Source: a virus
Virus record (IMG/VR): IMGVR_UViG_3300024264_002980
Location: 1 to 32,642 of that record
DNA length: 32,642 nt
Strand: one strand, 5' to 3'
Under the pieces are notes generated by a model, which saw nothing but the letters and a program-made list of their open reading frames with translations, was not told where the DNA came from and searched no databases. The position numbers were made by a program, and so were the translations under genes. Shown piece after piece: positions 3,265 to 32,642 of this stretch. Each line of letters starts with the position of its first letter. The first letter of the stretch is position 1.

Positions 3265-3744
3265 TTAAAACTTATTTAATATCTTAGCTAAGCTGCCTAC
3301 AAAGGGCAATAGCATTATGGCCATTAATAAATTCATTCCTGTGTGGGCTATAGCTATTCTAAGCGTATCACCTTTCGGCATCCCATCAGATACAAATAGT
3401 CCTGCTAGCCATATAGTACCAGTAGTACCAATATTAGCTCCCAGTACACAAGCTATAGCAGCAGGTAGAGGTAGAGCTCCTGCGGCTACTAAAGCTATAA
3501 TAGCAGTAGTAGACAGCGATGATGACTGCCATAAAAGAGTCATTATAATCCCTCCAAAGAACATATATATTGGACTACCTAAAAACCAACTTAAATGCTC
3601 CATATTACCCATAGATTTCATTCCCCCTGAGAATGTCTTAAGTCCAATATAAAAAATAACCAGACCAACAAGGGCTGTTATTACTGGGTTTCCTAGATCC
3701 ATTTTCTTCACCTTTTTCCATAATTTTTTTCCTTCTGTACCCAT
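3265..3744 (-). CDS. Half-size Na+/phosphate cotransporter-like membrane protein
   Basis: A 159-residue, very hydrophobic protein with about four membrane segments. It has both hallmarks of the NptA/SLC34-type Na/Pi cotransporter repeat: the QSSS motif at residues 73-76 and the GANIGTTGT phrase at 102-110. Family members normally have two inverted repeats of this type, often plus a PhoU-like domain, in more than 300 residues; here only one repeat is present. It could act as a homodimer, boosting phosphate uptake in a phosphate-poor ocean, or could be an inhibitor; both ideas are inference. The gene starts just after the stop of the nuclease gene. Confidence 0.75.
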   Translation of the reverse strand: MGTEGKKLWKKVKKMDLGNPVITALVGLVIFYIGLKTFSGGMKSMGNMEHLSWFLGSPIYMFFGGIIMTLLWQSSSLSTTAIIALVAAGALPLPAAIACVLGANIGTTGTIWLAGLFVSDGMPKGDTLRIAIAHTGMNLLMAIMLLPFVGSLAKILNKF

Positions 3745-6018: not shown

Positions 6019-6780
6019 TTAGAAGTTTAGTGTAAGAACAATACTAGGAGTTAGTTCTTCTGCGTCTAGATTATAGTTTAATTTAGGTTCAATATCTAAA
6101 CCTGAAACATCTACTAAATAAGAAGCTCCTAAGTTACGAGCTAATTCATCTTCATCACCATTTACATACATAGTAATACCAGATAAGTTACCATCTACTT
6201 CATAAGCTAATTTTTCTGTATCTTCTGAGTAGGTTAGTGCAGTACCGTAAGTACCCATATCTACTCTAGTTCCGATAACCCAATTTTCTGAGTCTAGATC
6301 ATAATCTACAGCACCGGTAATACCTAAGCCCCCAGTAGTTACTGTGGATGCTAATGCTACAGATTCAATGTCAGATACATCATTCTTATAGTCTTCAAAC
6401 TCTAGGGCTACAGAGGTAGTACCCATAGTAATTCTTAAGCTTTCATCCATGCTCATATTTGCAATAGTATGCTCACCTTCAGCACCGATCCAAATATCTC
6501 CTTGGTTTCCTAAAGACACACTTACTTCGCCAACGGTAGTTCCTAGATTCCACTCGTCTAAAGCAAAAGTAGCACCGTCTACAGACTCTATATTAAAGCC
6601 TCCAAAAGCTGAACCTTCTGAGGACATAGAAGCTCCTAAAGTAGTAGTTGACGCCCATTTGTCTGACGAATTTTCTTTTAATTCTACTTCTACACTACCT
6701 GTAATAGGATTAGCTAAAGCAGAAAAAGCCATACAGCTAATAGCTGTAGTAGTTAATAAAGTTTGTGATAAACGATTCAT
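6019..6780 (-). CDS. Outer-membrane beta-barrel (porin-like) protein with signal peptide
   Basis: A 253-residue protein with a clear Sec signal (hydrophobic residues 5-20, cleavage after ALA at 21-23). The mature part is a long series of short alternating polar/apolar beta strands with Gly, Thr, Asp and Ser turns, no cysteine, and it ends in a terminal Phe (VLTLNF), the usual C-terminal signature recognised by the BAM machinery. This predicts a small porin-like barrel inserted in the host outer membrane. Phage-encoded porins are known in lambdoid phages, where they replace host porins and block other phages; that role here is inference. RBS AAGGAAA. A small hairpin (6798-6814) lies just ahead of its start. 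Confidence 0.65.
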   Translation of the reverse strand: MNRLSQTLLTTTAISCMAFSALANPITGSVEVELKENSSDKWASTTTLGASMSSEGSAFGGFNIESVDGATFALDEWNLGTTVGEVSVSLGNQGDIWIGAEGEHTIANMSMDESLRITMGTTSVALEFEDYKNDVSDIESVALASTVTTGGLGITGAVDYDLDSENWVIGTRVDMGTYGTALTYSEDTEKLAYEVDGNLSGITMYVNGDEDELARNLGASYLVDVSGLDIEPKLNYNLDAEELTPSIVLTLNF

Positions 6781-6813: not shown

Positions 6814-7335
6814 TTATTTCATATTTATTTTTAAATATTCTAGTATTTTCTTTGGAGAAGTTTCTCCATAAGGATCTTTGTAAGATCCTAATATGTTACG
6901 ACCTGGTTCTTCAAACCAAGCTTTTACTAACATATTGTCTATGAGGGCGGCATATCGCCAAGATCTCATTCCCATACCTAGATGACTCTTGTCTACTAAC
7001 ATACCTAATTCTTTAGTAAAAGAACTACTATAATCAGATATAAATTTTATACTATTAATGTCTAGATGAGAGTACCAATTACTCATTACAAAAGGGTCAT
7101 TTACAGATATACAATATATATTTGAAATACCTAATTTAATGAATTGTTCATACTCTTTATCAAAATCAGGTACTTGTTTAGAGGAGCAAGTAGGAGTAAA
7201 AGCTCCTGGCACGGAAAAAATAACCACTTTTTTATTTTCAAAAAGGCAGTTACTCGTTGTGTCTTCTATAGTCGTGCTTGAAACTTCTTTTAAAGAAACA
7301 GAAGGTACTAATATATCAATATAGTAAGATGTCAT
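6814..7335 (-). CDS. Peroxiredoxin, Prx5/AhpE-like
   Basis: A 173-residue thioredoxin-fold peroxidase. The peroxidatic motif is intact: VPGAFTPTC with Cys50, preceded by strand KKVVIFS. The later phrase GMRSWRYAALIDN is the conserved Arg region of Prx5 proteins, and VNDPFVMSNW (78-87) is a family helix start. These enzymes reduce H2O2 and organic peroxides, using glutaredoxin, thioredoxin or glutathione. Two glutaredoxin-like genes are at 17568-18057, a possible electron source. A degenerate relative is at 18050-18457. It has its own promoter candidate. Confidence 0.88.
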   Translation of the reverse strand: MTSYYIDILVPSVSLKEVSSTTIEDTTSNCLFENKKVVIFSVPGAFTPTCSSKQVPDFDKEYEQFIKLGISNIYCISVNDPFVMSNWYSHLDINSIKFISDYSSSFTKELGMLVDKSHLGMGMRSWRYAALIDNMLVKAWFEEPGRNILGSYKDPYGETSPKKILEYLKINMK

Positions 7336-13351: not shown

Positions 13352-13786
13352 TTACGAAATATCAATTTTTTTTGGTTTTTTAGTGTCTGGAACTATTCTT
13401 TCTAGTACCACGCTAAGTAATCCATTACTCATACGAGCGTCTTTTACTTCTATATCGTCTGCAATAGTAAACTTACGGGTAAATCCTCTATTAGCTATAC
13501 CTCTGTACACCCACGAATCGGCGTTATTATCACTTTGATCAGGTTTATACGAAATAGATAGTACATTATCAGTGACTACCATATCAATATCTTCTTTCGA
13601 TACTCCCGCTAAGGCTATCTCAATAGTATATTGATTATTGACATTAGTTATATTATACGGAGGATACCCAGTACTTTGTGCCTGGTTGTCTAAATACTTA
13701 TTCATCTGATCGAAAAGACGATCAAATCCTACCGCATAGGGGGTAAATTTATTAATATCTAATAAAGAAGCATTTCTCATATTCAT
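13352..13786 (-). CDS. Hsp20 / alpha-crystallin small heat shock protein
   Basis: A 144-residue protein. Residues about 10-30 give the short helical N-terminus (FTPYAVGFDRLFDQM, as in IbpA), and residues about 42-135 the alpha-crystallin domain: YPPYNI, YTIEIALAGVSKEDIDM, LSISY, WVYRGIANRGFTRKF, and the closing NGLLSVVLER. It holds unfolding proteins in the cytoplasm; Hsp20 genes are common in marine T4-like phages, perhaps to assist capsid assembly. Ribosome site GGAGG is strong, suggesting high expression. Confidence 0.93.
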   Translation of the reverse strand: MNMRNASLLDINKFTPYAVGFDRLFDQMNKYLDNQAQSTGYPPYNITNVNNQYTIEIALAGVSKEDIDMVVTDNVLSISYKPDQSDNNADSWVYRGIANRGFTRKFTIADDIEVKDARMSNGLLSVVLERIVPDTKKPKKIDIS

Positions 13787-26560: not shown

Positions 26561-27247
26561 TTAACTTCCTTTCTGTTGACTATAAAAAGATCTAACTCTA
26601 TATTTAAGCTCAGGTATAAAATTTACTACCTTACCTGTAAAACATTGAGATTCTTTTTCATCTACTCCAATAACTATTGAAAAATTATTTATAGCAGTGT
26701 TAAATAAATAATTATGTGCAACAGCATATGCAGTAGCTTGTATATAGTAGTTTTTTATTTGAGAGGTGTATTTTTTCTTTTTTGAGGTTTTAAAATCTAT
26801 TATAGATAGTACACCATTCCATAATCCAATGCCATCTACTCTTCCGGCAAATTTTAGTTTGGGATGCCATAGAGGTATTTCTTGAGCATAGGGAGTAAAG
26901 TTATTTCTATCACACTCTTTTATAATGTCTCTAGCAGGTTGTTTAATTTTTCTTGGCTCTTTAGAAAGGCCAGAAGATACAAACCAGTCGCTAAAAACTC
27001 TATCTTCTTGTAAGTAGTACTGCTCTATGTAGTCGTGTACTGCAGTCCCTCTATCAGTAGCTTCTTTAGATATTCTATTAGCTTCTTCTTCGCCTACTCT
27101 TTCTCTCCACTTATGTAAAAAAGAATTATTCGAAGTTGCTCCTAAAATAGTAGTTATACTAGGGTACTCACCATCAGGAGTTTTGTACACTCTTCCAGAC
27201 TCTCTATCTATATTATACGCTTCTAAACACTTTTCATAGTTAAACAA
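26561..27247 (-). CDS. PD-(D/E)XK nuclease, RecB/MGME1-like
   Basis: A 228-residue nuclease. N-terminal YPSITTILGAT is a usual start for this phage family. Core motifs: GTAVHDYIE (68-75) with His71, FAGRVDGIG with Asp138, IIDFKTSKK with Asp151 and Lys153, and YYIQATAYA with Gln170. These are the full RecB-like catalytic set. It cuts single- or double-stranded DNA ends, probably in recombination, replication or host DNA breakdown. It ends one base before the phoH start and overlaps the upstream gene by 8 bases. Confidence 0.85.
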   Translation of the reverse strand: MFNYEKCLEAYNIDRESGRVYKTPDGEYPSITTILGATSNNSFLHKWRERVGEEEANRISKEATDRGTAVHDYIEQYYLQEDRVFSDWFVSSGLSKEPRKIKQPARDIIKECDRNNFTPYAQEIPLWHPKLKFAGRVDGIGLWNGVLSIIDFKTSKKKKYTSQIKNYYIQATAYAVAHNYLFNTAINNFSIVIGVDEKESQCFTGKVVNFIPELKYRVRSFYSQQKGS

Positions 27248-27584
27248 TTTTAAAACTTTCTCGTAACGTATTAGGTTTTTCTCGTAAGAAGTTATCTTCT
27301 TTAAGTTCTGTCATCCATTGTTGCCATAGTTTTTGAGCTTTAGTAACATCTTCGTCTGATTTAGCCGGTAAATCGATGTCATTTATAGTGCTCAGAAATG
27401 CAGAAGCTAAAAACAAGTTAGCTGAACCTATTTCTCTAGATTCTAGTTCTTCTTCATCAGCTTTAATAGGTCTAGGCTCTACTAACTCTAAATTGCTTTC
27501 TTGAATATCCATGTTATCCTCGTTATAAACATCCATAGGAGGACTAGATAATAGATATTTTAATAACTCTTTTTCTTTAGTCAT
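27240..27584 (-). CDS. Acidic hypothetical protein, 114 aa
   Basis: A Glu/Asp-rich product (MTKEKELLKYLLSSPP...) with a short central helix (GSANLFLASAFLSTI) and a helical end (DVTKAQKLWQQWM). No family recognised. Overlaps both neighbours by 4-8 bases. It may be an accessory of the nuclease. Confidence 0.6.
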   Translation of the reverse strand: MTKEKELLKYLLSSPPMDVYNEDNMDIQESNLELVEPRPIKADEEELESREIGSANLFLASAFLSTINDIDLPAKSDEDVTKAQKLWQQWMTELKEDNFLREKPNTLRESFKIV

Positions 27585-27892
27585 GGTGCTTGATTAATTA
27601 TCCCTATAATAGTATAAATAAATCCTGAAATTGCTAATATGAAAGAACCTATGAACATTAGAGTTTTTAAACTTACTTTACTAGCTGACACAGTATCGTG
27701 AAGTTCTTGTATTCTTTTATTACTTTGTTCTATACTTGCATTTAGAGCCGATAAAGATTGACTAATGTGAATATAACGTTCTGCGCACACAGCTTCATGT
27801 GTTTCTAGATCACTTTTTGTTTTTTGCGACCTTTCGTGCAGCCAGTTTATATTCTTTTTAACATCATCGCTTAAACTACTTTCTTCTATCAT
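27581..27892 (-). CDS. Coiled-coil protein with C-terminal membrane anchor
   Basis: A 103-residue protein. Residues about 10-70 form a coiled coil (HERSQKTKSDLETHEAVC...NKRIQELHDTVSASKVS), then residues 77-97 form a hydrophobic span (TLMFIGSFILAISGFIYTIIG). The plan (coiled coil then one span, short end) resembles XhlA-type holin-associated proteins. It precedes the SleB-like hydrolase on the transcript's far side. A role in lysis is plausible but unproven. Confidence 0.6.
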   Translation of the reverse strand: MIEESSLSDDVKKNINWLHERSQKTKSDLETHEAVCAERYIHISQSLSALNASIEQSNKRIQELHDTVSASKVSLKTLMFIGSFILAISGFIYTIIGIINQAP

Positions 27893-27937
27893 TTTTTATT
27901 GTATCAAACGCTTATTATGTTAGTCAATCTTAAATTT

Positions 27938-28411
27938 TTATTTTTCCCACCTATAAAAATGGTGATCCTCTATAGTAACCGTTTTTGATAGATGGCTACT
28001 CCAATAAGGTTTGACTTTTTTACTATGATAGTGCGTTGAGTTGTGTGTTACGTCTGATATTTGCCCTAAAATTAACGCTTTAGCAAGTTTAAAAGAAAAT
28101 TCTTTTACCTCTTTATTTAACATAGTATCTTTTATTCCATCACAATACCAACTAAATTGGCATTTGTTAAGTATTATATTATTATTTTTGTCTTTTTTGG
28201 CTTGAGTTACGACCTTACATACTGAGTTTGGAAATCTACTATCTTTTACCCTGTTTATGGTTACGTTTCCTACAGCTATTTGACCTCTTACTGATTGATT
28301 GCGTGCTTCAAAATAAATATTCTTTGCTAAGCACTCTATTTCTTTACTCGTATCTGCCAGCACGGTCTTTGCACTAAGTAATAATAAAAAAATAGTTATT
28401 GATTTTATCAT
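27938..28411 (-). CDS. Secreted cell wall hydrolase, SleB-like
   Basis: A 157-residue protein. Residues 2-19 are a Sec signal peptide ending VLA-D. The rest is a SleB/Hydrolase_2 domain: CLAKNIYFEARNQ (likely catalytic Glu35), GQIAVGNVTINRVKDSRFPN, CQFSWYCDG (two Cys likely disulfide-linked in the periplasm) and THYHSKKVKPYW. It would cut peptidoglycan from the periplasmic side without needing a holin, and complements the GH19 enzyme at 874-1698. It ends just before a strong AT-rich gap and is preceded by the terminator at 28434-28464. Confidence 0.85.
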   Translation of the reverse strand: MIKSITIFLLLLSAKTVLADTSKEIECLAKNIYFEARNQSVRGQIAVGNVTINRVKDSRFPNSVCKVVTQAKKDKNNNIILNKCQFSWYCDGIKDTMLNKEVKEFSFKLAKALILGQISDVTHNSTHYHSKKVKPYWSSHLSKTVTIEDHHFYRWEK

Positions 28412-28433
28412 ACACTACTCCCCTTATGTTAAT

Positions 28434-28464
28434 AAAAAACAGCCGCAAGAGTAGCCTGCAGCTG
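28434..28464 (-). terminator. Intrinsic terminator before the SleB-like gene
   Basis: On the minus strand CAGCTGCA pairs with TGCGGCTG (eight pairs, one G-U) around a 9-base loop, followed by TTTTTT. It ends the two-gene unit 28477-29051. Confidence 0.75.
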
Positions 28465-28476
28465 ATTTTATTTGTA

Positions 28477-28812
28477 CTAAGTATTTTTTGTATTTTTAAA
28501 CCAGTAGGGCTCGGAGTGTCGATTTGTCCATGAGTATTCTACTTGTAGCTTCCTGAGCATTTCATTTAAGTCTTGACATTCATTAATAATTTTGATACAC
28601 TCGTTAGTAAATATGGTAAACATATTGTTGGAATAACTCCCTACTCCCCCGTAAGCCTCTTCGGGCTTAGTGTATAAATACTTTTTATAAAAGGTTGGAT
28701 TATTCATCTTTAACAAAAGTGGTTTAACTAACTTTACAACATCTTCTACAGAGGTAAAAGAGCTAGTTAATAGTGTTTTCAAAGAGTTAAAGTCTTGTTG
28801 ATACTTATTCAT
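28477..28812 (-). CDS. Hypothetical helical protein, 111 aa
   Basis: A helical product (MNKYQQDFNSLKTLLTSSFT...) with a Gly-rich linker (EAYGGVGSYSNN). No family recognised. Its start overlaps the stop of the gene upstream, so the two are translated together, and the unit ends at the 28434-28464 terminator. Confidence 0.6.
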   Translation of the reverse strand: MNKYQQDFNSLKTLLTSSFTSVEDVVKLVKPLLLKMNNPTFYKKYLYTKPEEAYGGVGSYSNNMFTIFTNECIKIINECQDLNEMLRKLQVEYSWTNRHSEPYWFKNTKNT

Positions 28813-29051
28813 TATATTATTAACCTACTTGGTTTTGAGTTTTTCCAGAATTCAGATTCTTTATAGTAACGTGTGTTTTCTAAAGAGTCTAAAAAGTTAT
28901 TTATTTCACGAGCTTTACGCTTCCAAAGTTTTTCTTTTAAAGGAGAACTTAATGCTTCGTCTCTTAAGAGGTTCATCTCAGAGAGTGCTTCATTAGGATT
29001 CCACTTTACTACGGATAGACAACGGCTCAATTCATTCTGATAGTCTTTCAT
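28812..29051 (-). CDS. Hypothetical protein, 79 aa, first gene of the leftward unit
   Basis: A charged helical product (MKDYQNELSRCLSVVKWN...) with no family match. It is the last minus-strand gene before the divergent junction, so a promoter must lie in the 51 bases to the right. No consensus promoter is obvious there. Confidence 0.6.
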   Translation of the reverse strand: MKDYQNELSRCLSVVKWNPNEALSEMNLLRDEALSSPLKEKLWKRKAREINNFLDSLENTRYYKESEFWKNSKPSRLII

Positions 29052-29102
29052 ATTATTTGCTTACCTGTTGTTATAAATTAATATTAGCATGAAAAATTAT
29101 AA

Positions 29103-29411
29103 ATGGCAAGAATAAAATTAAATCAAAATATGTCTACTCTTAAAAAGTGTCAGACTAATAGGAGAAATAAGTTGAAGAAGGTTACAGGATATTTTAACAA
29201 ATTTAATAAAACCTATGTGCAACGAGAACTGCTCACACTGCAAGATCTAGGAATTAATACAGAAAGTGTAAACAGTGCAGACCTCTCAAAAAATATTACA
29301 ACACCTATGTTTGTGGTAACTAAAAATAATGGAGTTATATCCAAACTTATAGGTAAATATTCTGCAGGTCACTTATCTTCTTGGATACAAAACTATATAA
29401 AGGTAAATTAA
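29103..29411 (+). CDS. Basic hypothetical protein, 102 aa
   Basis: The first plus-strand gene. The product (MARIKLNQNMSTLKKCQTNR...) is Lys/Asn-rich, basic in the first third, with no named motif. There is no clear ribosome site. It is directly coupled to the bS21 gene by a TAATG overlap, so it may also act on ribosomes, though that is inference. Confidence 0.6.
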   Translation: MARIKLNQNMSTLKKCQTNRRNKLKKVTGYFNKFNKTYVQRELLTLQDLGINTESVNSADLSKNITTPMFVVTKNNGVISKLIGKYSAGHLSSWIQNYIKVN

Positions 29412-29677
29412 TGAAAATAAGTATAAAAAAATATAATAATGATGTCTCTAAAGCATATAAAATTATGATGAGAAAACTAAATGCCGATGGGTTCTATATA
29501 GATGCTAAAAGACAAAGTTACTATGTTTCTAAATCTGAAAAACTTAGAGAAGCTAAAAAAGCAGGTAAAGCTAGGTACAGAAAAGCAGAAGCTAAAAGAC
29601 AAGCTCTTATGCAAAAGTTAGAAAGAAAAGCAGGCTACACAAAGAAGCAAAAAAATACACCAAACTCCAAATCTTAA
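29411..29677 (+). CDS. Ribosomal protein bS21 homologue
   Basis: I start at ATG 29411 (MKISIKKYNNDVSKAYKIMM) with AAAGG upstream; a longer reading to 29381 is within the previous gene. The 88-residue product has the bS21 plan: a short strand, a helix VSKAYKIMMRKLNADGF, a charged turn (RQSYYVSKSEKLREAKKAGK), and a long basic helix (KARYRKAEAKRQAL). In bS21 this protein sits in the small subunit near the 3' end of 16S rRNA and affects start selection. A phage copy could bias ribosomes toward phage mRNA. The extra 18 residues at the C-terminus are basic and not found in typical bS21 (about 70). Confidence 0.75.
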   Translation: MKISIKKYNNDVSKAYKIMMRKLNADGFYIDAKRQSYYVSKSEKLREAKKAGKARYRKAEAKRQALMQKLERKAGYTKKQKNTPNSKS

Positions 29678-29711
29678 ATTTAAATTTTTGTTGCTAACTA
29701 CTATTTTTAGT

Positions 29712-29731
29712 GTTAATATTAACTATATAAT
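29712..29731 (+). promoter_or_regulatory. Palindrome and -10-like box upstream of the 29749 gene
   Basis: A perfect 12-base palindrome GTTAATATTAAC (29712-29723) is followed by TATAAT (29726-29731). No good -35 box is seen. It could be a promoter with an operator-type palindrome for the tmRNA-containing unit. Confidence 0.4.
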
Positions 29732-29748
29732 AAAAAAGAGAGTAACGC

Positions 29749-29916
29749 ATGAATACTGAAAAAGATAAAATTATCAATGAAGCTGTAGAAAAACTCCATA
29801 ATAATCCTTTAAAGTTTGCACCTTATAGACGGCCTAGCCGGTTTAATAGGCTTAGAAATTATAATAGTAAGATTATTAATAAGGAAAAAGGAAGTACTAG
29901 TATAGTTTCTTTATAG
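29749..29916 (+). CDS. Small basic protein, 55 aa
   Basis: The product MNTEKDKIINEAVEKLHNNP... ends in a basic, Arg/Asn/Tyr-rich segment (RRPSRFNRLRNYNSK). It reads through without rare codons and is followed by the AGGAGG ribosome site of the next tiny gene. Function unknown. Confidence 0.55.
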   Translation: MNTEKDKIINEAVEKLHNNPLKFAPYRRPSRFNRLRNYNSKIINKEKGSTSIVSL

Positions 29917-29926
29917 GAGGATACAA

Positions 29927-30046
29927 ATGAATCCTAAAAACGGAGTAATACCGCATGCACTGTCTAAAGCATGGAAAAAGAAACTAAAACAACTATCTAA
30001 TAAGAAAATAAGACAAAAAATAAATAAGGAATTAAGAGGTCACTAA
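29927..30046 (+). CDS. Tiny basic protein, 39 aa, strong ribosome site
   Basis: The product MNPKNGVIPHALSKAWKKKL... is very basic. AGGAGG is six bases before the ATG, one of the strongest ribosome sites in the window, so it should be made in quantity. It lies just before the tmRNA acceptor piece. Its last codons may be part of a stem with 30070-30074 (GAGGT/ACCTC). Function unknown; a ribosome-binding peptide is a possible guess. Confidence 0.55.
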   Translation: MNPKNGVIPHALSKAWKKKLKQLSNKKIRQKINKELRGH

Positions 30047-30049
30047 CTT

Positions 30050-30410
30050 CGATACATCTATCGTTTTAAACCTCTTTTTTGTAATCGTTGATACAATTCA
30101 ACATACATACTGGACCTGGGGGCAGTACCCAGCAGCTCCACCATAAGGACATTTTAACTAACATCATAGTATTAGTAATAGACGTAAAATAGGGTTTACT
30201 AATACTATAGTATCATTTATGATAATGTCTTTATGATGGGGCTGATATAGGATCGACAGGTGTGTAGAGATGAGAGTAGATTACCGTGTTGGCCTACGAT
30301 ATTCAGCCAAAAACTACAAACGCAAACGATAACTTTGCACCATCTAATTACGCACTAGCTGCATGATTAAGGGGGCTGGTCACTTGCCTAGCAACAGAAA
30401 AAGTGACACT
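30050..30410 (+). ncRNA. ssrA: Permuted two-piece tmRNA (alphaproteobacterial type)
   Basis: The gene order is acceptor piece, spacer, coding piece. The acceptor piece ends CTGGG-GGCAGTA-CCCAG (T arm, 30116-30132), CAGCTCC and ACCA (to 30143). The coding piece starts GGGGCTG (30238-30244), which pairs with CAGCTCC; the third pair is G-U, the Ala identity element. D-loop-like GGATCGACAGG follows. TACATAC (30104-30110) pairs with GTGTGTA (30260-30266) as helix P2. A pseudoknot (GTAG/CTAC and TTGGC/GCCAA, 30276-30310) stands 11 bases before the resume codon at 30322. The coding piece ends near a 7-bp hairpin (30379-30385, 30401-30407). The spacer 30144-30237 has a perfect 13-bp hairpin (30166-30178, 30196-30208), and helices continuing the acceptor stem across both cut sites. 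It rescues stalled ribosomes with SmpB. The 5' end of the acceptor piece is approximate. Confidence 0.93.
30322..30366 (+). other. tmRNA tag reading frame: ANDNFAPSNYALAA
   Basis: GCA at 30322 is the resume codon; 14 codons follow to TGA (30364-30366), with a TTAA behind it. With the initial Ala charged on the tmRNA the tag becomes AANDNFAPSNYALAA. The ANDNFA start and the -LAA end are alphaproteobacterial in style (Caulobacter AANDNFAEEFAVAA) and suit ClpXP/SspB recognition. Confidence 0.9.
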
Positions 30411-30429
30411 CATTATTTTGAATAGCACT

Positions 30430-31026
30430 ATGAAAGTATACTCTGCCTCCAAAGCTATTATAGAATTTTCTATAGATTCTTCTAATACTATTGACCCTTC
30501 AGTGGTGTTTTTAGTAAAAGATGATAAATATGGAATATCTCTAGGTAAAAACAATACCATACTTTCAGCATGTGTTATTAACTGCGCAACTGGTTACAGA
30601 GAGAATACTGTTATAGGAAGTGGCAATTATATAGGCCCAAGTACTACTATTAATAGTGATACTTTGATAGGCAATAATAATACTATAACAGGTTGTTGTT
30701 ACTTAGGTTTTCATAGTGTTATTCAAAATAATGTTTATATAGAGTATAATGCTCATGTACAGAATTACTCTACAGTAGGTAGTCATTCTTTTATAGGAAC
30801 ATTTTCGCCCATAATAAAAGATGTAAAACCTTTCTCTAAAGTGTTTGGTAATCCTTCTAAAACAAGAGGAGTATATCGTTCTTCTATTTATAAAAATAAC
30901 TTTAATAATAATCAAAAAGATGAAATAGAAAAATTTGTAAGAGAAGGTATAGAACCTTTAGATCCTTATATTATAAGTATTATTGATGAATATAGAAATT
31001 TCTCAAGAAAAAAAGTAACAAAATGA
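30430..31026 (+). CDS. Left-handed beta-helix acyltransferase (hexapeptide repeat)
   Basis: I choose ATG 30430 (MKVYSASKAIIEF); an earlier GTG at 30403 lies inside the tmRNA's end hairpin. The 198-residue product has a run of hexapeptide repeats (VIGSGNYIGPSTTI, TLIGNNNTITGCC, FHSVIQNNVYIEY, AHVQNYSTVGSHSFIG) and then SKVFGNPSKTRGVY, the usual closing phrase (x-G-x-PAK) of the LbH acetyltransferases. These transfer acetyl or other acyl groups to amino-sugars. It begins a three-gene surface-sugar set, overlapping the next gene by 4 bases. Confidence 0.78.
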   Translation: MKVYSASKAIIEFSIDSSNTIDPSVVFLVKDDKYGISLGKNNTILSACVINCATGYRENTVIGSGNYIGPSTTINSDTLIGNNNTITGCCYLGFHSVIQNNVYIEYNAHVQNYSTVGSHSFIGTFSPIIKDVKPFSKVFGNPSKTRGVYRSSIYKNNFNNNQKDEIEKFVREGIEPLDPYIISIIDEYRNFSRKKVTK

Positions 31027-31796
31027 TAATAATATATAGAGCTTCAGAAGCTAATAAGTCTCCAGGAAGTATATCAGACGGCTCACAAGATAAAGCTAGA
31101 TGGAATGGAAAAAAGAAAGATGAAATCTTTAGAAAATGTTGGCTTTCTTTACAACAAGATTTAGAAGGCTGGGACGATAAGATTATAGTATTAGCAGATA
31201 CAGTTACTGAAGAAACTAAATCTTGGATGCGAGAAACCTGCTCTATACCTACTAAATTAGAAATAAAAGATATACCTAACAGAACTGAAGTACCTCCGTT
31301 TGGGGAGCATCCTTATCCTCAGTATCATCCTGTTACAATAAATACTTGTATTCCGTTAATGGAAAATTTAATAGAAATAGCAGAAGCAAATACTGAAGAG
31401 CTAATATATTTATGCGAAGACGATTACCTTCATACTAAAACTGCCATAAAAACTATGAAAAATGTTTTTAAAGCAGGGTATGAAGGTTTTTATTTGCCTT
31501 ATGATTATCCAGATAGGTATTTTGATAAAGACAGAACAGTAGAAGTACTAGTAGGACCTGACTGCCACTTAAAAACAGTTAGCAGTGCTACTTTAACTTT
31601 AGCCGCAAAAGGAAAAACATTCTTACCTTTTAAGTTTTCTATACTTCAAGCAGGTTTGTTTTCAGACGACTCTTGGACCTGGAAAGCTTTTAGACAGAAC
31701 GTAGCTGTTTGTCCTTTGCCTGGCACTGCTACGCACCTACAAGATAATTGTGTAACCCCCTTAGTAGATTGGAATGACGTATGGAATCAGTTGTAA
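31023..31796 (+). CDS. Glycosyltransferase-like protein
   Basis: A 257-residue protein with a GT-A-like plan: N-terminal nucleotide-binding part (MIIIYRASEANKS..., KIIVLADTVTEETKSWM), then an acid motif ELIYLCEDDYLH (EDDY in the place of DxD), a polar PYDYPDRYFD loop and LQAGLFSDDSWTWKAF. These features match phage/cyanophage GT-A type glycosyltransferases, but the family is not certain. It is between an acyltransferase and an epimerase, which supports sugar transfer to a phage or host surface molecule. Confidence 0.6.
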   Translation: MIIIYRASEANKSPGSISDGSQDKARWNGKKKDEIFRKCWLSLQQDLEGWDDKIIVLADTVTEETKSWMRETCSIPTKLEIKDIPNRTEVPPFGEHPYPQYHPVTINTCIPLMENLIEIAEANTEELIYLCEDDYLHTKTAIKTMKNVFKAGYEGFYLPYDYPDRYFDKDRTVEVLVGPDCHLKTVSSATLTLAAKGKTFLPFKFSILQAGLFSDDSWTWKAFRQNVAVCPLPGTATHLQDNCVTPLVDWNDVWNQL

Positions 31797-32642
31797 TTAC
31801 AGGATCTGCAGGCTTAATAGGTAGTCATCTATGTTATAAGTATTTAGAGTTAGGATACAGAGTAATAGGTATAGACTCTTTAATAGGTGGTTATATAACC
31901 AATATGCCTGATAATAAAAACTTTTTTTATTATGAACAAGACATACTAGATACTAAAGAGCTGTCTAATGTAATGGGTATTTACTCTCCTGTGCTTGTAA
32001 TACACTGTGCTGCTTTAGCACACGAAGGCTTAAGTGTTTTTTCTCCTAAAAAAATAGTTGAGAACATATATGCAGGAACAGCTTCTGTGTGTAGTGCTTC
32101 TGTAAGTAATAATGTACCTATGTTTATAAATACCACTTCTATGGCAAGATATGGCGAAGGAAATCCTCCTTTTCAAGAAGATCATACTCCTAATCCTGTA
32201 GATCCTTATGGCTTAGCTAAATTACACGCAGAGCAGCATTTAAATTTAATGAGTGACATTCATGGAATAAAAGTATTTCATATGGTTCCTCATAATGTGT
32301 GTGGCCCTCATCAGTGCTATAGTGATCCTTTTAGAAACGTTATGAGTATTTTTGCAAACTTAATATCTAAAGATAAACCTGTATATATTTATGGTGACGG
32401 AACACAAAAAAGATCTTTTTCTCATGTAAAAGATTGTGTAGAAGCTTTTGTAACAGTTTATAATAAAAGAGATAAAATAGAAAGCAAAGAAGTATTTAAT
32501 ATAGGTCCTAGCCATGGAACCGAAACTTCTATAGCAGCACTAGCAAATAAAGTAGCTAAATATTTTAACAAAACTGCAGAAATAAACTTTGTTCCTGAAA
32601 GACCTAGAGAAGTAAAAAATGCTTGGGTATCTACTGATAAGG
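31781..32642 (+). CDS. NAD-dependent sugar epimerase/dehydratase, cut by right edge
   Basis: An open frame starts at ATG 31781, overlapping the glycosyltransferase by 16 bases, and runs off the edge after 287 codons. It is a short-chain extended (SDR) epimerase: VVITGSAGLIGSHL (NAD-binding GxxGxxG), ID at the strand-2 end, CAALAHEG (the NAD-loop), the TTSMARYG segment, and the catalytic YGLAK (Tyr-x-x-x-Lys), then NVCGPHQ and YIYGDGTQKRSFSHV. Such enzymes convert nucleotide-sugars, for example UDP-glucose to UDP-galactose, or dehydrate them. Last residues are missing. Confidence 0.85.
   Translation, partial: MESVVITGSAGLIGSHLCYKYLELGYRVIGIDSLIGGYITNMPDNKNFFYYEQDILDTKELSNVMGIYSPVLVIHCAALAHEGLSVFSPKKIVENIYAGTASVCSASVSNNVPMFINTTSMARYGEGNPPFQEDHTPNPVDPYGLAKLHAEQHLNLMSDIHGIKVFHMVPHNVCGPHQCYSDPFRNVMSIFANLISKDKPVYIYGDGTQKRSFSHVKDCVEAFVTVYNKRDKIESKEVFNIGPSHGTETSIAALANKVAKYFNKTAEINFVPERPREVKNAWVSTDK

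Follow-up and report, generated by a model that had tools for sequence, protein, structure and literature searches.

The intervening spacer of a two-piece tmRNA is usually treated as waste. Phages carrying such RNAs are already in print: a 2022 study describes the two-piece tmRNA of phage Melnitz and reports tmRNA in 402 of 18,146 phage genomes, with 133 unique structures, 53 of which were called two-piece, 50 of these being marine or aquatic (PMC9004378). tmRNA has also been reported in Bradyrhizobium phages (PMC12656738), and none was found in a pelagiphage (PMC10504331). A model of the permuted tmRNA is given in PMC11915505, the excerpt of which names two permuted genes carrying an insert between the pieces, a tRNA-Ala in the first and a repeat in the second. 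The spacers of these genes also hold cargo, in each a single case and either an RNA gene or a repetitive element, and the excerpt mentions no protein-coding cargo. The same source mentions the tmRNA of phage DS6A, which lacks a coding region and inhibits E. coli tmRNA. The 23-aa frame predicted in the S. meliloti tmRNA, whose start codon is not needed for tag synthesis (PMC10117765), is a warning of spurious frames in tmRNA genes, though that frame is the tag frame. No report of a protein gene inside a tmRNA spacer was found, by title or start of abstract, among the matches listed.

The DNA analysed here, called the window, is the whole 32,642-nucleotide stretch of IMG/VR virus record IMGVR_UViG_3300024264_002980. 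Its permuted tmRNA gene is not new in kind because phage two-piece tmRNAs have been published (PMC9004378). The novelty that the initial annotation saw in such a gene is removed by the 53 structures of that study and, taken alone, the window gene is a further case of them. Melnitz (MZ577095.1) resembles the window in having a phage-borne, marine, permuted tmRNA of the alpha type with an intact tag, and its gene scores 113.4 bits with the Rfam model RF04321. It differs in the glutamine riboswitch (RF01739) behind its tmRNA, an element that was looked for behind the window tmRNA and not found, and in its spacer, which holds a 54-aa ORF led by a Shine-Dalgarno (SD) sequence whereas the window spacer holds a hairpin. 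The DS6A tmRNA is phage-borne as here but tag-less, while the tag frame in the window is intact (PMC11915505). The likeness to the alphaproteobacterial two-piece tmRNA (RF01849/RF04321) extends to all modelled parts, in a full-length match.

A complete permuted tmRNA gene

ARAGORN called a permuted tmRNA at 30050–30457 of the window with the tag ANDNFAPSNYALAA. The tmRNA_permuted model (RF04321) gave a full-length match at 30081–30366 on the + strand (118.7 bits, E = 7.5e-23, gathering cut-off 47). The alpha_tmRNA model (RF01849), whose use the initial annotation had proposed, matched at 30028–30410 over model positions 1–355 with 108.6 bits, above its gathering cut-off of 50. The phage-borne permuted two-piece tmRNA proposed at the outset is thus borne out by three matches which, within the reach of sequence models, confirm that a circularly permuted tmRNA gene is present in full at 30081–30366 (+) and that its 3' region, of the alpha type, extends to about 30410. 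The order of the pieces, acceptor end before coding piece with a spacer between them, is seen in the ARAGORN call, the RF04321 match and the sequence. The features are collected in Table 1.

The pairings named in the initial annotation were found on checking. The acceptor stem (CAGCTCC/GGGGCTG) forms 7/7 pairs and its third pair is G-U. P2 joins the two pieces, for example by 6/6 pairs in its outer part between 30081–30086 and 30279–30284 (GTAATC/GATTAC). Stems S1 and S2 of the pre-tag pseudoknot are both present and exactly 11 nt separate its end from the GCA at 30322. The tag frame has a hydrophobic, degradation-type end followed by its stop, and the 3' tail of the coding piece is conserved in the sister phages. 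In the spacer, both the 13-bp hairpin and the helix joining the mature ends that had been proposed are present; the helix is conserved in relatives but the hairpin is not.

Table 1. Features of the permuted tmRNA gene in the window
Feature	Position	Strand	Evidence
Acceptor piece (P2 5' strands, T arm, acceptor 3' strand, encoded CCA)	30081–30143	+	RF04321 start; compensatory changes in T stem and acceptor of relatives
T arm, stem CTGGG/CCCAG	30116–30132	+	Covaries; 100% of cells paired
Acceptor stem 3' strand, partner 30238–30244, third pair G-U	30133–30139	+	Covariation alignment
Encoded CCA end	30141–30143	+	Sequence; invariant in alignment of relatives
Intervening spacer, 94 nt, variable slot without ORF in window copy	30144–30237	+	Spacer parsing; sister comparison
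9-bp helix adjoining both mature ends, 5' strand (partner 30225–30233)	30144–30152	+	Fold; covariation in 9/9 pairs
13-bp spacer hairpin insert (30166–30178 with 30196–30208)	30166–30208	+	Fold; not conserved
Spacer helix 3' strand	30225–30233	+	Fold; covariation
Coding piece: acceptor 5' strand 30238–30244, D region, P2 3' strands, pseudoknot, tag frame	30238–30366	+	RF04321; sequence
Pre-tag pseudoknot: S1 30285–30288/30295–30298, S2 30289–30293/30306–30310	30285–30310	+	Pairing check
Tag frame ANDNFAPSNYALAA and TGA stop	30322–30366	+	ARAGORN; sequence
Coding-piece 3' tail, GTCACTT...AAGTGAC hairpin with GCAACAGAA; end approximate	30367–30410	+	RF01849; hairpin by eye

The tmRNA gene is followed by a gene for a hexapeptide-repeat protein, a gene for a 257-aa protein without a Pfam match and an epimerase gene. 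A promoter scan around the tmRNA gave 4 promoter-like sites where 3.4 were expected, no excess over shuffles, and a terminator scan of the same region gave 0 terminator-like sites. The gap separating the tmRNA from the small ORF upstream holds, at 30034–30080 (AAGAGGT ... ACCTCTTTTTTT, with an inner CGATA/TATCG hairpin), a stem that by eye resembles a terminator or processing stem, though it was not called in the terminator scan. Some other genes of the window may derive from a host. By eye, three of them resemble a phosphate transporter, a porin and a peroxiredoxin (3265–3744, 6019–6780 and 6814–7335), the porin-like gene having no Pfam match; a fourth is HSP20 by Pfam (13352–13786).

Conservation in related phages

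Relatives were collected through two other genes of the window, 29 virus loci by a search with the 257-aa neighbour and 14 by the exonuclease at 26561, and 35 records were tested. A permuted tmRNA scored over the Rfam cut-off in 29 of the 35. One of the remaining six has a partial match below the cut-off and five have no match; by arithmetic that assumes the spacing of the window, these five end before the expected place of the tmRNA. The homologous permuted genes keep the acceptor stem, P2 and the tag, the parts whose preservation in related phages the initial annotation had set as a test of its reading, and its reading passes that test.

RNAalifold predicted 36 pairs on an alignment of 23 distinct genes, 26 of them with compensatory change. 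Pairing was then counted over 28 pairs, 12 of the acceptor and T stem, defined from the window sequence, and 16 of P2 and the spacer helix, defined by the RNAalifold prediction; the 16 are favoured since they were predicted on the same alignment, the 12 are not. Across these 28 pairs and the 23 distinct sequences 97.2% of cells are paired, against 78.4% in shuffles, and 22 pairs change on both sides, with covariation in all four tested helices. None of 500 shuffles reached the observed pairing or covariation on any of five measures, and sliding the partner strand by 1–3 columns reduced pairing to 35–48%. The third acceptor pair is G-U in 23/23 aligned sequences which, with the encoded CCA, indicates alanine identity. 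Sister phages have other T stems whose strands still pair (TCGGG/CCCGA, TGCGG/CCGCA and CGCGG/CCGCG). For P2, compensatory change occurs in 7/7 tested pairs, taken from RNAalifold, with 93.7% of cells paired. In the helix after the CCA, each of the 9 aligned pairs shows change in both strands, and the clamp joining the two future ends therefore appears to be under selection. For the pseudoknot, support comes mainly from the window sequence together with one compensatory pair in S2 (in L126); on the same alignment only 3/5 S2 pairs are present in L129.

One relative with the same tmRNA (G012) has genes for portal, head protease, tail, DNA polymerase and ribonucleotide reductase. No SmpB gene was found in the window record or in any of the 35 relatives, an absence that carries little weight because the window record is a 32.6-kb fragment; no relative is known to be complete. 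In another related record (G029) about 20 tRNAs surround the permuted tmRNA (L166, 12158–12569, − strand), the spacer of which contains a T-loop-like string, GGGTTCGAACCC.

Proteases read the C-terminal end of the tag. In the relatives of the window the middle of the tag varies and the end is LAA or IAA, with one ALVA (L166). The LAA and IAA ends fit ordinary degradation, and on these tag ends the suggestion that the tag might steer products away from proteolysis was rejected. The alphaproteobacterial type of the tmRNA and its intact tag are supported by the RF01849 match and by the relatives. The further step of reading the likely host class from the tag had to be dropped: the tag does not fix the host class because Melnitz, with an alpha-type tmRNA and the tag ANDNYVPVDYALAA, infects OM43, which is not an alphaproteobacterium (PMC9004378). 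Caution is thus advisable in using ssrA tags as host markers.

The spacer as a variable slot

Spacer length ranges from 5 to 499 nt with a median of 69 in 130 distinct viral genes among the matches listed, as read by a parser that misses some genes found by Rfam or ARAGORN (for example L129). The window spacer (L001) has 94 nt and the 13-bp hairpin; no ATG frame of at least 20 codons starts in it, and no SD-led ORF fills it. What follows on the slot and on nested genes rests on the relatives.

The four closest sister genes (L122, L123, L124 and L125) are 97–100% identical to the window gene downstream of the D region and only 20–99% identical in the spacer, and their sharp differences from it lie between the T arm and the D arm. 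The near-identical sister L124 has a spacer of 30 nt against 94 in the window, 64 nt being missing. L123, which is 93.5% identical over 27048–32642, has an SD-led ORF of 34 codons in its spacer. Among the loci then collected, the window spacer was matched only by the window itself and by one contig (L122/L154). The idea that the hairpin is a conserved design element was rejected, given its absence from L124 and the few spacer matches; these alignments show it to be an insert that copies of this variable slot may have or lack. The spacer of this phage group, as far as its sequences tell, behaves as an exchangeable slot, and the pattern looks like replacement of cassettes by recombination in the conserved flanks. 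The spacer would be free to vary because it is thrown away in maturation.

Several other phages have permuted tmRNA genes with features of their own. In MD18 (L288, 738–1205) and DSS3_MAL1 (L289, 895–1358) the permuted tmRNA is closely preceded by GOLLD RNA (RF02032), and the 98-nt spacers of both contain, by eye, the T-arm-like GGTTCGAAACC. Sinorhizobium phage Phosso (PV764938.1, L290) has an unannotated permuted tmRNA of 603 nt at 1039–1641. Its 410-nt spacer is possibly a structured RNA. It contains a GTG frame of 57 codons and an ATG frame of 51 codons that ends at +13, but neither has an SD sequence and they were not counted.

Nested open reading frames

A nested ORF was taken as an SD-led ATG frame of at least 25 codons that fills at least 60% of a spacer of at least 90 nt. 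Among the matches listed, such an ORF fills 15 of the 43 long viral spacers, a set that includes homologous pairs and relatives chosen by homology; the other 28 have none by the same definition. In 60 dinucleotide shuffles keeping the same flanks the mean was 0.38 and the maximum 2. When an SD sequence was not demanded the count rose to 25/43, against a shuffle mean of 4.6. The loci of the first pattern alone, which favours alpha-type T arms, gave 11/34 among the matches listed. The start codon lies mostly 15–22 nt behind the CCA, and the frames end mostly at +13 of the acceptor 5' end, otherwise mostly between −17 and +42. All 15 genes with a nested ORF, and one more gene with a spacer ORF (L021), match RF04321 at full length and over the cut-off (16/16).

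In contrast to the viral spacers with ORFs, no spacer-filling ORF was found in 21 bacterial genes (spacers of 8–151 nt, median 33, four of at least 90 nt), a small control chosen by pattern. In the class survey, 349 of 385 genomes were over the tmRNA cut-off. The three longest genes among its best-scoring rows (span over 285 nt) have no spacer ORF, and long spacers are perhaps under-listed in these rows.

Five recurrent families, F1–F5, were seen among the nested ORFs of viral spacers. F1 (HWISW...PFQWG...NPYK.YR) occurs at 52 viral loci. At 46 of these a fully paired tmRNA T stem and a CCA precede the matched start, the CCA by 18 nt, and the acceptor partner strand was located by script in 43, one of which (L273) looks misplaced. 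The T arms at the 46 loci are of 14 kinds, the acceptors of 4, and the tags were read in 17 versions. One further locus (L245) is cut at the contig end. The remaining five F1 copies (L242, L243, L249, L266 and L278) lie outside any tmRNA; L249 has kept the leader of the tmRNA spacer, while L242 and L243 differ in their SD leader and are extended at the C-terminus. Because F1 also occurs outside tmRNA, its distribution suggests that the predicted protein has a job of its own, with the tmRNA its usual home and not its reason. F2 (D.VTYL.L.F) was found at 12 loci, 12/12 inside a tmRNA and behind a CCA with a fully paired T stem. Like F1 it recurs in different tmRNA backgrounds. F3 and F4 were each seen in two genes. 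F5 (AKIPKYLSGT) has 13 loci, all inside a tmRNA with the ATG 19 nt after the CCA, and also the isolate Melnitz-1 (MZ577095.1, L287), in which locus 1535–1676 is the 54-aa ORF, unannotated and reaching 42 nt into the coding piece. The same ORF family is nested in an uncultured contig (L093), where a glutamine riboswitch (RF01739, 778–828) stands directly behind the permuted tmRNA.

Using codons chosen to end before the clamp helix, dN/dS is 0.146 for F1 (19 distinct sequences, 34 codons; 5, 9 and 22 variable sites by codon position) and 0.137 for F2 (7 sequences, 27 codons), against pN/pS of 0.61–1.39 in the other frames. These values of about 0.14 argue that both are under purifying selection in the coding frame. 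The contrast is weaker for F5 (dN/dS 0.283, 8 sequences, 36 codons; other frames 0.51 and 0.81), which has an in-frame indel of 8 codons. The spacer ORF of L021, a singleton in a confirmed tmRNA gene, matches Pfam DUF6356 (E = 4.2e-11). It was the only one of 10 nested peptides over the Pfam cut-off, none of the 10 had a PHROG match, and a search for F1 and F2 in annotated phages gave no match. These comparisons show the nested ORFs to be conserved, putatively protein-coding frames between the CCA and the acceptor strand, and we infer that they are translated, from the uncut precursor.

Alternative explanations

The presence of sugar and metabolic genes might indicate that the record is host chromosome or plasmid. 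This is scarcely credible for an IMG/VR virus record in which endolysin, phage exonuclease and head-protein families are found and whose relative G012 has portal, head protease and tail genes. A host ssrA captured by chance and now a passive passenger or decaying copy would account for the alpha-type sequence, and phages are known to pick up ssrA fragments (PMC9004378). It is nevertheless very unlikely: 29 of 35 related records retain the tmRNA gene, 22 of the 28 tested pairs change on both sides, the tags are intact, and the tmRNA lies upstream of the gene at 31023 in the loci found with that gene. The phage tmRNA could instead be a decoy that competes with or inhibits trans-translation in the host, as reported for the tag-less DS6A tmRNA, which inhibits E. 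coli tmRNA (PMC11915505); with no phage SmpB found in the window record or the 35 relatives it would share that of the host. A decoy would not need the tag frame, resume codon and pseudoknot that are intact in the window, nor the intact tag frames of the relatives, and this reading is regarded as improbable.

The spacer ORFs of the relatives could also be chance open frames or by-products of conserved RNA. The conserved flank supplies stops (TGA at −1 and TAG at +13) so that frames end neatly by default, and the last codons are fixed by the clamp helix and acceptor strand. However, shuffles that keep these flanks give 0.38 such ORFs where 15 are observed, and the low dN/dS is confined to the coding frame and to codons before the helix. 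The in-frame indel in F5, the DUF6356 match and the five F1 loci outside tmRNA likewise speak for real genes, and an origin by chance is highly unlikely. Weighing the comparisons above, the gene is very probably a phage-owned two-piece tmRNA with an exchangeable spacer slot, in which nested SD-led genes are present in the copies of some relatives.

Discussion

By established tmRNA biology, RNase P and 3' nucleases would cut the precursor of this phage-owned tmRNA and AlaRS would charge it with alanine. By sequence and covariation its parts are those of a permuted tmRNA: a tRNA-like domain with G3-U, P2 holding the pieces together, the pseudoknot, the resume codon and an intact degradation-type tag. 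Together with SmpB of the host, it would rescue ribosomes that stall during infection and add the tag to their products. The conserved helix clamps the spacer beside both mature ends, and the spacer would be cut out and discarded, whether the slot holds a hairpin (window), little (sister) or a small protein gene (other relatives).

A bolder proposal, possible but doubtful at present, is that permuted tmRNA genes of phages are gene-within-gene devices through which the amount of rescue RNA comes to depend on how translation stands in the cell. Given that the nested start lies mostly 15–22 nt behind the CCA, a ribosome initiating there would sit over both the clamp helix and the acceptor end. 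Since the start and its SD sequence adjoin the clamp helix, translation may compete with maturation, and on one transcript the two would exclude each other. With the stop inside the acceptor or D region, at +13 or +42, the RNase P cut would turn the nested message into a non-stop message, for the tmRNA itself to clear. The window lineage would swap such cassettes, its own copy having the hairpin instead.

If phages do use the spacer as a slot for small protein genes, annotation has overlooked a set of small phage proteins, one of them in a cultured phage, whose genes lie within an RNA gene. One transcript would then be both a messenger and the precursor of a stable RNA, with a conflict between ribosome and RNase P, and the spacer slot would offer one reason for phages keeping the permuted form.
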